Assembly: GCA_022843175.1 (NCBI GenBank)
Contig: JALHOE010000037.1
Coordinates: forward strand, 1-52,146
DNA length: 52,146 bases
Source: Deltaproteobacteria bacterium
GTDB lineage: Bacteria > Myxococcota_A > Polyangia > Polyangiales > JADJMO01
Direction of reading: 5' to 3'
In this document: positions 37,410 through 43,456 of the stretch, piece after piece
Layout: each line of letters opens with the position of its first letter
How positions within the stretch are numbered: the first letter of the stretch is position 1
Position numbers and translations under genes: made by a program
Notes under the pieces: generated by a model
What the model was told of the DNA's origin: nothing
The model's database searches: none
The model's input: the letters and a program-made list of their open reading frames with translations, nothing else

Positions 37410-37449
37410 CGGAGGAGTGGCCGAGTGGTCGAAGGCAGCGGTTTTGAAA
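37410..37449 (+). repeat. Right attachment site (second 40-bp copy)
   Basis: Identical to 6111-6150. It forms the first half of the complete tRNA-Ser(TGA) gene. The match ends right after the anticodon loop, so strand exchange probably occurs in or near the anticodon stem-loop. Confidence 0.88.
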
Positions 37450-37495
37450 ACCGCCGATGGGCAACCATCCAGGGGTTCGAATCCCTTCTCCTCCG
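37411..37495 (+). tRNA. tRNA-Ser (anticodon TGA)
   Basis: Acceptor stem GGAGGAG (37411-37417) pairs with CTCCTCC (37488-37494), with discriminator G. The anticodon stem is GCGGT/ACCGC with loop TTTGAAA, giving anticodon TGA. It has a long variable arm typical of tRNA-Ser and a T-arm with GGTTCGAATCC. CCA is not encoded. Its 5' half belongs to the element and its 3' half to the chromosome. Confidence 0.96.
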
Positions 37496-39376: not shown

Positions 39377-40345
39377 ATGTCGAAGCGAACCTTCCCAGTT
39401 CTCATCATCGCGGCATCGCTCGCGACCACTCCCGTGTTCGCCGGCCCGACGCCCAAGGGCGCACCGGTCGGGTACGAGTCGAAGTTCAAGGCGGTCGTCG
39501 AGGCCGAGAAGAACGAGGAGTACGAGAAGGCGCTCGCCCTCCTCGATGAGATCCCCGCGGAGAAGCACAACGTCTACACGCGGTTGAAGCGGGCGACCCT
39601 GCTGGTGCGGCTCGGCCGGTTCATCGAGGCCGAGGAGATCCTCTCAACGCTCATGAAGGATCCGAAGGCGGACGCGATCCGCGCGACCGTGCAGGGCGAT
39701 CTCGACGACCTCCGCGCGCGCATGCCGAAGCTTACGATTCGTCTCTCGGCGAAGAGCAAGGCCGACGCGTGGGTCACCGTCGACGACAAACCGGTCGGGC
39801 CGCCCGTGACGATTCCGGTCAACCCGGGCACTCATATCGTCGTCGCGAAGCGCGGCGACGCAGAGGTCTTCCGACAGAAGGTCACGCTGCAGGACAGCCA
39901 GACGCTCGAGGTCGAGATCGACACGTCGATGGCACCGCCGGTCGGCAGCGTGTCGGCCGCGAAGACCGCGCCCTCTGCGGCGCCGGCGAGCTCGGACCCT
40001 TCGACCAAGTCGGGCGGCATCGGCGCGACGCCGTTCTTCATCGGCGGAGGCGTGCTCGTCGTCGGCTCGGTGGTGTCGTTCGTACTCGCCAAGTCGGCGC
40101 AGAGCGATGTCGAGTCGAACTGTTCGATGCAGAAGACCCGCGCCTGCGACACGGATCTCGCGGGCGCGTCTCGGGTGCGCACGTGGGAGACGGTCGGCTG
40201 GATCTCCGGCGGCCTCTCGCTCGCTTCGATCGGCGTGGGGATCGCGATCCTCGGATCACGCGGCACGGAGAGCGCGAAGCCGACGGCGATGGTGACGCCG
40301 ATGGTGGGGTCGACGATGGGGTTGTCGTTCGAGGGGAGGTTTTGA
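39377..40345 (+). CDS. Secreted TPR/PEGA-like protein with a membrane segment
   Basis: The 322-residue product has a signal peptide (VLIIAASLATTPVFA), TPR-like helices (EEYEKALALLDEIPAEKH, FIEAEEILSTLMKDPK), a PEGA-like beta domain (KADAWVTVDDKPVGPPVTIP, then NPGTHIVVAKRG) and two C-terminal hydrophobic segments (FFIGGGVLVVGSVVSFVLA and VGWISGGLSLASIGVGIAIL). This architecture is widespread in myxobacteria, often encoded near Ser/Thr kinases, with unknown function. Confidence 0.85.
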   Translation: MSKRTFPVLIIAASLATTPVFAGPTPKGAPVGYESKFKAVVEAEKNEEYEKALALLDEIPAEKHNVYTRLKRATLLVRLGRFIEAEEILSTLMKDPKADAIRATVQGDLDDLRARMPKLTIRLSAKSKADAWVTVDDKPVGPPVTIPVNPGTHIVVAKRGDAEVFRQKVTLQDSQTLEVEIDTSMAPPVGSVSAAKTAPSAAPASSDPSTKSGGIGATPFFIGGGVLVVGSVVSFVLAKSAQSDVESNCSMQKTRACDTDLAGASRVRTWETVGWISGGLSLASIGVGIAILGSRGTESAKPTAMVTPMVGSTMGLSFEGRF

Positions 40346-40347
40346 GC

Positions 40348-41787
40348 ATGCGCGTCCCCCTGCTGCTCGCACTCCTCGTTCAAGGGTGCTTTCAGACCGA
40401 CTTCCCGACCGCGTGCTCGCAGGACGAAGCGCAGTGCGACGAGCCGACCACCGATAGCTCCGTGAGCGAGACGTCGGCGACCGAGACCACGCCCGGCGAG
40501 GAGACGTCGGGCGAGGACTCGCCGGTCGATGCCGATGAAGACACCTCGACGGCAGATTCCTCGATCGACGCGGCCGATGCCGAGACCGGCGCCGATTCCA
40601 CCCTCGTTGACTCGATGCCCGATACCGCGCCCCCGCCCGACACGGCGACTCCGCCCGACACGGCGCCTCCGCCCGATACCACGCCCGTTGACAGCGCTGT
40701 GTGCGCCGCGAGCTCGTACTCGTGCGCCGGTGATCAGCTTCGCCGCTGCAAGACCGACTCGTCGGGATACGACAACATCGTCGCGTGTCCGACGGGCACC
40801 TGCAGCGCTGCGCTCGGGCGATGTACCTATTGCGCGCCGGGATCTCGTAGTTGCTCCGGCGCGCAGCCAACGCTCTGCAATGCCCTGGGCTCGGCCTACG
40901 CTGCAGACGGCGCCGCCTGCGCCGCGCCCCAGACCTGTGGCGGCGGCGGCACCCCCGGCGTGTGCGGCTGCACGGCGAGCCCGACCGCCTGTTCCGGCAA
41001 GGAATGCGGGATGGTCGACAACGGCTGCGGCACGATGATCAGCTGCGGCAGTTGCACCGCGCCACGCACGTGCGGCGGCGGTGGAACGGCGAACAAGTGC
41101 GGTGGATGCAGCGGCACGTTGCCGGGACCGACGATGGTGGGCGTCGGCACGTACTGCGTCGACAGCACCGAGGTGACGCAATCGCAGTACGCGGCGTTCG
41201 TCACGGCGAAGGGCTCGGACTTGAGCGGTCAGCCCTCGACCTGTGGCTTCAACACGACCTTCGCGCCCGGCACAGCGGCGTCCTGCTACACGCCGTCGAC
41301 GACGCCCTCGAAGCCCGTCACCTGCGTGGATTGGTGCGACGCGAGCATGTACTGCAAGTGGGCTGGCAAGCGGCTCTGCGGGAAGATCGGTGGCGGACCG
41401 AACGCGTATCTCGAGCCGGCCGACGCCACGAAATCGCAATGGTTCGCAGCCTGCACGAGCACGAGCGGCTACCTCTTCCCCTACGGCAACGTCTATGTCA
41501 GCGGCTTCTGTCACACGCCGGGTGACACTGCGGGCACCACGGTCGACGTGAAGACCAGGCCGTCGTGTACGGGAACCTCGGCGCCCTACACGAACATCTT
41601 CGACATGAGCGGCAACGCGAGCGAGTGGGAAGACTCCTGCGGGAACCTTTCGGGCACGTGGTACTGCCACACCCGCGGCGGCAACTTCACGGATGCCACC
41701 GCGGGTGCCGTTCAGTGCAAGGACGAATCGGTGTGGCCCGTCGACTTCAGCGCGAAGTGGCTCGGATTCCGCTGCTGCGCCGATTGA
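40348..41787 (+). CDS. Lipoprotein of the formylglycine-generating enzyme (FGE/SUMF1) family
   Basis: Start at 40348, with GAGGGGAGG upstream, gives a lipobox (LLVQGC, Cys14). An acidic Thr/Pro linker (about 25-110) and Cys-rich modules (about 115-250) precede a C-terminal FGE-sulfatase domain: YCVDSTEVTQSQYAAFV, PVTCVDWCDASMYCKWAGKR, then NIFDMSGNASEWEDSC and a terminal GFRCC. Catalytic copper-binding cysteines of true FGE cannot be assigned, and many bacterial homologues are non-catalytic. It lies 2 bp after the PEGA-like gene, so they form an operon. Confidence 0.9.
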   Translation: MRVPLLLALLVQGCFQTDFPTACSQDEAQCDEPTTDSSVSETSATETTPGEETSGEDSPVDADEDTSTADSSIDAADAETGADSTLVDSMPDTAPPPDTATPPDTAPPPDTTPVDSAVCAASSYSCAGDQLRRCKTDSSGYDNIVACPTGTCSAALGRCTYCAPGSRSCSGAQPTLCNALGSAYAADGAACAAPQTCGGGGTPGVCGCTASPTACSGKECGMVDNGCGTMISCGSCTAPRTCGGGGTANKCGGCSGTLPGPTMVGVGTYCVDSTEVTQSQYAAFVTAKGSDLSGQPSTCGFNTTFAPGTAASCYTPSTTPSKPVTCVDWCDASMYCKWAGKRLCGKIGGGPNAYLEPADATKSQWFAACTSTSGYLFPYGNVYVSGFCHTPGDTAGTTVDVKTRPSCTGTSAPYTNIFDMSGNASEWEDSCGNLSGTWYCHTRGGNFTDATAGAVQCKDESVWPVDFSAKWLGFRCCAD

Positions 41788-41835: not shown

Positions 41836-42585
41836 ATGAGGTTCGCAGCTGCCGCTTTGTTGCTGCTCGCGTCGTGCGCGGGCGAGAGCGACTCGGGCAA
41901 TGTCGCCACCGAGGACTCTGTGGCGACCGATACCTCGGGGTCCACCGACACGACGCCTCCCGTGGACGATACCGGCACGACGATCGCGGACTCTTCGTCG
42001 ACCGACTCGGGCACCGCGCCGGATGGTGCCGCTGATGCTGACCCCTACGGCGCGTATCCCCCCGGCCCCTACGGGACCAAGGTCGGGCAGACGCTCGCGC
42101 CGCTGGATTGGGTCGGATACGTCAACCTCAAGGGCGACGCCGTTTCGACCACGAAGACCTACGGGCCGACGTCACTCGATGCGCTGCGCCGGACAGGAAA
42201 GGGCTATGGGCTCGTTCACCTGTCCGAATTTGGGTGACCCGGCTGCAAGAACGCGGCCCGTGATCTGGCCGCGAAAGGGAAATCAATCCTCGATGCCGGT
42301 GGCGTGATCATCGAGGTCCTGCAGACGCGGGCATTCGCCGCGCCGACCAAGAGCGATCTCGATACCTGGATCAACGGATACTCGCTTCCGGTCACGTCGG
42401 TCATCGATCCTCCCTCGAAGCCGAAAGCGACGTTCGACACCTACGGCGGTCGCGAGCAGGTCTTCGTGCTCGACATGCGCACCATGAAGATCTTGAGGTA
42501 TGTGCAGGGTTCCGTTGTAGGGACGGGCGATTCCAGCGTCACCCAGGCGATCCCGTTCCTGATGGACCTGCTTTCGAAGGCCTGA
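41836..42585 (+). CDS. Candidate selenoprotein: thioredoxin-like lipoprotein with Sec-Pro-Gly-Cys
   Basis: The frame from 41836 runs to 42585 (249 residues) with one in-frame TGA at 42235-42237 (codon 134). Before it the product has a lipobox (LLASC, Cys14), an acidic Thr/Ser/Asp linker and a thioredoxin-like start (LDWVGYVNLKGD). Around the TGA it reads HLSEFG-U-PGCKNAARDLA, so the TGA takes the place of the first Cys of a CxxC motif (UxxC). After it the fold continues with GGVIIEVLQTRAF, the cis-Pro-type LPVTSVIDP and VFVLDMRTMKILRYVQG. A hairpin fitting bacterial SECIS follows. Without Sec insertion a 133-residue product lacking the redox site would result. Selenocysteine machinery (selA, selB, selC, selD) is not in the window. 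Confidence 0.82.
42252..42273 (+). promoter_or_regulatory. Candidate bacterial SECIS hairpin
   Basis: A 7-bp perfect stem, CGCGGCC (42252-42258) with GGCCGCG (42267-42273), closes an 8-nt loop CGTGATCT. The loop starts 21 nt after the TGA and has G at its second position. These values fit the published bacterial model (short stem-loop just downstream of UGA, G in the first two loop bases, 16-37 nt spacing). It would bind SelB carrying Sec-tRNA. Confidence 0.7.
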
Positions 42586-43456
42586 CACAGCGCGGGCAGC
42601 TCTGGCCGCGAAGCGCGCGGTTCTTGATGGCCGCGCGCCACACGTGGCCGCGCTTGCACCGCCACCAAGCGAGCGCCTTCGATCCGGCGAACACGTCCGT
42701 TGGCGAAGATCGATTTCGCGTCGGATGCCACTCGCCGGCGATCGCGGGAGCGCGCACGGCGAGGCTGCGAGCGTTGGTGATTTGCTTGCCGGCGCAGAGG
42801 GGGCAGCCCGTGGTCGCCCTCGGCGCGGAGCGCCACACGTGAGAAGCGTCGCGACCGCACTGCCAATACACCGCCCGGTGCGACTGGGCGGTCACCGATC
42901 GCGGCGACGCGATGCCGTTGCGCGACGGATGCCAGAGCGCCGCGAGCTCCGGGCGCACTCGCTCGAGCGAGTTCGTGACCGAGACGCGTTGGCCTGCGCA
43001 GAAGGGGCACCCTCGACCTGCCGTCCGCTTGTTCGGCTGCGCGGACCAGACGTGATCGGGTCCCGCATCGCACTGCCACCAGACTCGCTTGTGCGAGCTG
43101 AAGGAGACCTCATCGGGGAAGAGGTCGCCGTTTCGCGTCGGATGCCACTGCGCAACGAGCTCGGGATAGCCGGCGACCCAGTGCTTCGAGGTGCGCGTGC
43201 GCATCCGCTGCTGGCGGGCGAGGTCGCGCGCGCGCCGCAGCGTCTGCGCATCAAGCGTGCTCGGGTCGGCATCGCCCGGAATGAACCCGTTCTCGTGCAG
43301 CTCCCGCAGTAGAACGTTGGGGCGAACACCCAGCTCCTCGCACAGGCGAGCGAAGGGGGAGCTGCGGTCGTGCCTCTTCTTCATCACCGCGTGTAGGGCG
43401 CCGAGTCGCCGCGCCACGAAATTGTAGCGTAAGTCTGCACGGCGCTCGGTGTTCAT
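42539..43456 (-). CDS. Treble-clef zinc-finger repeat protein (DUF4379-like)
   Basis: The 305-residue product has a helical N-terminus with MerR/HTH-like LCEELGVRPNVLLRELHENG and then three zinc-ribbon repeats of the type 'W-H-P-T-x-N-G ... W-W-x-C ... G-x-x-W ... C-P-x-C', for example VAQWHPTRNGDLFPDEVSFS and RTAGRGCPFCAGQ. These repeats are found in nuclease-associated proteins and are thought to bind DNA. Its last 47 bp overlap the end of the selenoprotein gene on the other strand. Its start overlaps the stop of the upstream 50-codon gene (ATGA). Confidence 0.82.
   Translation of the reverse strand: MNTERRADLRYNFVARRLGALHAVMKKRHDRSSPFARLCEELGVRPNVLLRELHENGFIPGDADPSTLDAQTLRRARDLARQQRMRTRTSKHWVAGYPELVAQWHPTRNGDLFPDEVSFSSHKRVWWQCDAGPDHVWSAQPNKRTAGRGCPFCAGQRVSVTNSLERVRPELAALWHPSRNGIASPRSVTAQSHRAVYWQCGRDASHVWRSAPRATTGCPLCAGKQITNARSLAVRAPAIAGEWHPTRNRSSPTDVFAGSKALAWWRCKRGHVWRAAIKNRALRGQSCPRCVRPSKAGPSGTGSPG

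Follow-up and report, generated by a model that had tools for sequence, protein, structure and literature searches.

A plus-strand gene interrupted by a TGA

The window, meaning the whole stretch of 52,146 nucleotides analyzed here, contains a plus-strand frame at 41836-42585 that encodes 249 residues. The sequence-only reading had proposed that this frame is open on either side of one TGA, and that the TGA stands at the first Cys of a redox CxxC motif. Both proposals were borne out. The TGA at 42235-42237 (codon 134, context SEFG-U-PGCKN) is the sole internal stop, and it aligns with the first CxxC Cys of the Cys homologues. The features of the locus are as follows.

40342..41787, plus strand: lipoprotein with an FGE-sulfatase domain, 481 aa, ending 48 bp before the selenoprotein gene (PF03781, E=2e-18)
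41836..42585, plus strand: predicted selenoprotein gene of 249 residues including Sec134, ending in the stop TGA at 42583-42585 (frame and homologues)
41836..41877, plus strand: predicted signal peptide with lipobox LASC and lipidated Cys14 (sequence; Cys14 conservation)
41878..42057, plus strand: low-complexity linker rich in Asp, Ser and Thr, residues 15-74 (sequence; pLDDT about 50-68)
42058..42582, plus strand: Prx/ResA-like thioredoxin-fold domain, residues 75-249 (AlphaFold2 pLDDT about 95-99; fold matches; PF00578)
42217..42219, plus strand: His128, conserved in the Sec-rich clade, 39/47 (alignment)
42235..42237, plus strand: TGA predicted to encode Sec134, which opens the UxxC motif (45 homologues with TGA, 28 with a Cys codon)
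42244..42246, plus strand: Cys137, second UxxC position, presumed resolving Cys (invariant in 73/73 rows)
42252..42258, plus strand: SECIS 5' arm, CGCGGCC (hairpin search and family tests)
42259..42266, plus strand: SECIS apical loop, CGUGAUCU, 8 nt (Arg codon bias in the loop)
42267..42273, plus strand: SECIS 3' arm, GGCCGCG (hairpin search and family tests)
42367..42369, plus strand: Trp178, conserved in 72/73 rows (alignment)
42451..42456, plus strand: Arg206-Glu207, of which Glu207 aligns with the cis-proline of the Cys clade (alignment)

The protein begins with a hydrophobic signal peptide, MRFAAAALLLLASC, that ends in a lipobox Cys, as in bacterial lipoproteins. Cys14 is at least 90% conserved among 60 homologues and invariant in 27 Sec members. 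On this N-terminal anatomy, the product is very probably an envelope lipoprotein. The closest solved folds to its C-terminal domain are Bcp and other peroxiredoxins together with the ResA/TlpA-type reductases, with Z up to about 16 (Foldseek, VIA-align). PF00578 (AhpC/TSA) detects the window protein at E=6e-4 and 20.2 bits, which is below its gathering cut-off of 26, and it matches 40/60 members at E up to 0.01. The NCBIfam models of June 2026, selenoprotein models included, gave no meaningful match over cut-off for the window protein, and a PDB sequence search gave no useful direct match.

The upstream FGE-domain lipoprotein gene may be co-transcribed with the selenoprotein gene, and the pairing is not conserved beside homologues. 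More generally, we rejected the idea of a conserved operon partner, as, bar unspecific kinase matches, the homologues are not flanked by counterparts of the window neighbours. Directly downstream, a minus-strand gene at 42539-43456 encodes three DUF4379 treble-clef zinc-finger repeats; the 3' ends of this gene and of the selenoprotein gene overlap by about 47 bp.

Predicted selenocysteine codon, hairpin and decoding genes

Comparative computation supports the Sec codon, the SECIS, the Sec machinery, the conservation and the fold. We searched the genome of the window and 96 relatives and found homologues in 37 of the 97 genomes, nearly all of the closer ones with exactly one TGA. Every TGA in the final set of 73 sequences (45 TGA forms and 28 Cys forms) falls at the CxxC/UxxC motif, so position 134 carries either Cys or TGA, the pattern that the sequence-only reading had advised looking for. 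As in bacterial selenoproteins generally, the in-frame UGA stands where homologues have Cys. In 13 pairs of Sec homologues, dN/dS downstream of the TGA was 0.06 to 0.41, and it was below the upstream value in 12 of them. The downstream part thus evolves as translated sequence under purifying selection, with no trace of the decay that would have spoken against a selenoprotein. Matches occur in only 57 of 379 sampled Myxococcota-level genomes, so that the family is restricted to a minority within the phylum. The contig scan placed eight named MAG loci in Myxococcales, Myxococcaceae and Deltaproteobacteria, and no plasmid-borne copies were found.

The hairpin that follows the TGA, at 42252-42273, reads CGCGGCC-CGUGAUCU-GGCCGCG. 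The 7-bp stem, the 8-nt loop and the G at the second loop position are as first described. However, the hairpin had been said to start 21 nt downstream of the TGA; the 21 nt run to the loop, and the stem begins after 14 nt. Published bSECIS rules ask for a loop of 3 to 9 nt, a stem of 4 to 16 bp, a G in the first two loop positions, a spacing of 16 to 37 nt and an MFE of at most -7.5 kcal/mol (PMC13188914). The window gene has a loop of 8, a stem of 7, G second, a spacing of 21 and -13.5 kcal/mol, and the proposed fit to the bacterial SECIS model therefore holds, for this gene and for most Sec genes of the family. Synonymous shuffles of the same peptide averaged -1.3 kcal/mol (p = 0.03 for this hairpin alone).

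The family-level tests are far stronger than this single p value. We applied the published rules with the extra demand that the loop have G followed by G or U. A hairpin meeting these rules was present in 32/45 Sec genes, against 3.8 expected when the codons of each peptide were shuffled synonymously, and in 0/27 Cys genes by the same test. The -7.5 kcal/mol limit was not reached in 13/45 Sec genes, and L055, although clearly a member of the family, lacks a hairpin that satisfies the strict rules. Folding energy alone separated genes from their synonymous shuffles weakly (mean z of -0.88 for Sec genes and -0.26 for Cys genes, p = 0.004); the loop-constrained hairpin test, not bare folding energy, is the informative one. 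When 20 Sec genes with a common register are aligned, pairing holds in 98.6% of the 7-bp stem cells, and three stem pairs show double-sided changes, with none once the partner is slid. The loop Arg codon is CGT in 20/30 cases (7% expected) and CGC in 1/30 (52% expected). These codon and pair counts come from related sequences, so they are not independent and are inflated by kinship. The arrangement resembles the E. coli fdhF SECIS, in which the UGA is followed by a hairpin with apical AGGUCU. The same AGGUCU occurs in L031, L033 and L035, whereas the window loop is the 8-nt one given above. An Rfam scan of the TGA region gave no meaningful match.

The genome of the window (9.75 Mb, 95% complete) encodes tRNA-Sec (anticodon TCA), selA, selB and selD, the machinery expected for a bacterial selenoprotein. 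The sequence-only reading had named these four genes as the ones to find, and held that a genome with no selB or tRNA-Sec would count against it. The selA and selB genes run off contig ends and are truncated in the assembly. True tRNA-Sec matches scored at least 59 bits and were separate from matches of about 52 bits and below, which were other tRNAs where checked; the 55-bit threshold was chosen after the score distribution was visible. One such sub-threshold match is a tRNA-Ser (anticodon TGA) in the window itself, at 37411-37494 (plus strand). TGA homologues are present in 23 of the 97 genomes and confined to genomes with tRNA-Sec or SelA: tRNA-Sec was found in 21 of the 23 and SelA in the other two, whose assemblies are fragmented or incomplete. 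Among the 74 genomes that have no TGA homologue, 11 have tRNA-Sec (Fisher p of about 2e-11).

These results bear on two other ways of reading the TGA. Any code in which TGA is a sense codon would also leave the frame open, so that UGA could be read as another residue (e.g., Trp) by readthrough or an altered code. This is very unlikely, because homologues without the TGA always have Cys in its place, TGA is an ordinary stop elsewhere and even ends the window gene, and the TGA forms are confined to Sec-competent genomes, this one with tRNA-Sec, SelA, SelB and SelD. That the TGA is a real stop left by nonsense mutation, in a pseudogene whose downstream frame is open by chance or only recently dead, could appeal to the long chance frames of GC-rich DNA but is refuted by an identical site in 45 homologues, Cys in the remaining ones, purifying selection on both sides and a conserved SECIS. 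The selenoprotein reading is thus upheld by the Sec genes, the Cys/TGA exchange, the conserved bSECIS-type hairpin and the undecayed downstream frame, and residue 134 is almost certainly Sec.

The selD gene of the same genome (L048, C44:36123-37052) has its own in-frame TGA, in the known UxxK motif (here UACK), followed by a GC-rich hairpin with a GUG loop. Its SelD is therefore predicted to be a selenoprotein as well. A formate dehydrogenase containing Sec could have explained why the machinery is there, but we rejected this idea, since no formate dehydrogenase match in this genome exceeded the cut-off and the matches contain no internal TGA. Therefore, a large share of the Sec use in this genome may fall to the family described here and to SelD.

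Two clades with different active-site residues

We built a tree of the 73 sequences with the Sec/Cys column masked and a midpoint root. It separates 47 rows, the window protein among them (42 Sec and 5 Cys), from 26 rows (23 Cys and 3 Sec), a split with moderate support. The tree requires at least six Sec/Cys changes, and for three of these the branches that force them are well supported. The position of L099, a long branch, is uncertain.

The two clades differ around the active site. In the mostly Cys clade, Pro207 is present in 26/26 rows and Glu140 in 25/26. The Sec-rich clade has Glu or Asp at 207 in 41/47 rows, Arg or Lys at 206 in 42/47, His128 in 39/47 and Ala140 in 43/47, and a cis-proline in at most 1/47. 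We take position 140 to be the equivalent of ResA Glu80, from the ResA motif CEPCKKE. Loss of the cis-proline is not strictly tied to Sec, as the five Cys members of the Sec-rich clade do not have the proline and the three Sec members of the Cys clade do. Each of these three (L063, L100 and L101) has its own SECIS-like hairpin in the same place, with a different sequence and an AGGU or AGUU loop, the hairpin of L100 being weak. They are probably independent Cys-to-Sec changes.

Some myxobacterial genomes hold multiple members of the family; that of the window has seven Sec paralogues, on C37, C17 (twice), C1, C8, C27 and C329, and seven Cys paralogues, on C1 (twice), C16, C27, C128 (twice) and C288. 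Three of the paralogues, two Cys and one Sec, are found within 8 kb on C1 (L061, C1:75600-85700), alongside a TlpA-like lipoprotein, a DUF6029 protein and a multicopper oxidase. The Cys paralogue on C16 (L065) is directly before a TlpA-like gene.

Proposed chemistry and relation to known enzymes

We suggest that SelB and tRNA-Sec decode UGA 134 as Sec under the direction of the downstream hairpin. The protein would then be exported and lipidated at Cys14, and the flexible linker would tether its domain to the cell envelope. In this scheme, Sec134 would be the nucleophile of the Prx/ResA-like thioredoxin-fold domain. Oxidized Sec134 would be resolved as a Se-S bond with Cys137, in a two-electron cycle, and an envelope thiol system would re-reduce the Se-S form. 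We infer the export and the Se-S cycle from the anatomy of the protein; the reductant and substrate are inferred too. The product is likely a redox enzyme, and we put the probability of the whole proposal, a Sec lipoprotein in which Sec134 and Cys137 cycle on a small electrophile or peroxide, at roughly 0.8.

The UxxC Prx-like selenoprotein is already known as a general kind. The sequence-only reading had recognized this class correctly; such proteins appear in marine data and in catalogues (PMC2398784, PMC1088965, PMC13188914). Named relatives are the GOS families Prx-like 1 and Prx-like 3 (PMC2398784), and the Redoxin family protein (PF08534) and Prx-like thiol:disulfide oxidoreductase (PF00578) of a later catalogue (PMC13188914). 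The window protein shares with them Sec at the first UxxC position, a Prx/redoxin-related thioredoxin fold, Cys homologues and a bacterial SECIS. However, judged by their descriptions, they appear to be set apart from the window clade, which comprises long-linker lipoproteins with Glu/Asp for the cis-proline, and from the window protein, which is below the PF00578 cut-off and outside NCBIfam. What appears to be new here, on residue and model comparisons, is the Sec-rich clade with an acidic residue for the cis-proline, without the ResA glutamate and outside the NCBIfam models.

The cis-proline of thioredoxin-fold proteins is more conserved than CxxC itself, and peroxiredoxins have Arg instead (PMC2757866). 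Peroxiredoxins such as Bcp and AhpE (PDB 3drn and 1xxu) resemble the window domain in fold (Z of about 16) and in having a non-proline at this position. Nevertheless, they are marked by TxxC or TxxU with that Arg, the catalytic residue of Sec-containing Prx being at the second motif position (PMC1088965), whereas the window clade has U first and Glu/Asp at the cis-proline position. Dio2 (PDB 9h48) has a similar Prx-like fold (Z 15.1, 155 residues aligned), and the iodothyronine deiodinases are membrane-anchored selenoenzymes, as is predicted for the window protein. However, their Sec closes the motif, SCTU, instead of opening it (PMC7506546), and Pfam deiodinase does not match the window protein. 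We therefore rejected a deiodinase relationship, the likeness being one of fold only.

The strongest competing view is that of a classical ResA/TlpA-like thiol-disulfide reductase with Sec merely for Cys, acting on protein disulfides such as those of apocytochromes. ResA, TlpA and CcmG (PDB 1st9, 4nmu and 3gl3) match the fold with Z of about 16, as well as Prx does, and share the predicted envelope location and a CxxC-type site, both redox residues of which are retained in UxxC. Furthermore, the Cys paralogues match the NCBIfam ResA, StoA and DsbE models weakly. However, members of that group combine CxxC with a cis-proline and an active-site Glu after the motif, and the window clade, which has Sec, has lost the last two, both of which the Cys clade keeps. 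There are also no cytochrome-maturation neighbours. We regard the ResA/TlpA-like view as possible but doubtful. Because the clade has neither the cis-proline nor the ResA-type glutamate, a protein disulfide would be a less likely substrate than a small electrophile or peroxide, although on these residues the odds that the substrate is not a protein disulfide are about even. The reaction type is here suggested by residue comparison.

A weaker alternative to a small electrophile or peroxide substrate is a metal- or metalloid-binding envelope protein, in which loss of the cis-proline lets Sec134, Cys137, His128 or Glu207 bind metal. The cis-proline may prevent metal binding in thioredoxin-fold proteins (PMC2757866), and His128, Arg206 and Glu207 are conserved. 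Still, this role is improbable, since the window has no metal-related neighbours and an oxidoreductase role is assumed for most UxxC selenoproteins (PMC13188914).

Returning to the redox lipoprotein that we favour, a bolder and tentative version may be considered. The family may represent multi-copy envelope selenolipoproteins of Myxococcota with a rebuilt active site (an acidic residue for the cis-proline, with conserved Arg206 and His128), whose chemistry is like that of neither thioredoxins, peroxiredoxins nor deiodinases, and which, with SelD, are the reason that much of the Sec machinery is kept. Our literature search found no relevant paper joining selenoproteins and Myxococcota. Because standard annotation splits such genes at the TGA and the window protein falls outside every current NCBIfam model, databases probably conceal a group of exported selenoproteins of Myxococcota. 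Through the replaced cis-proline, a link between the architecture of the active site and Sec use could be tested. The 14 paralogues of one genome, half Sec and half Cys, and the repeated Sec/Cys changes on the tree amount to a natural experiment on adopting and dropping selenium. Within genus g101, the close homologues L098 on the one hand and L102 and L103 on the other differ in Sec versus Cys, which makes them a good set for studying Sec gain or loss.
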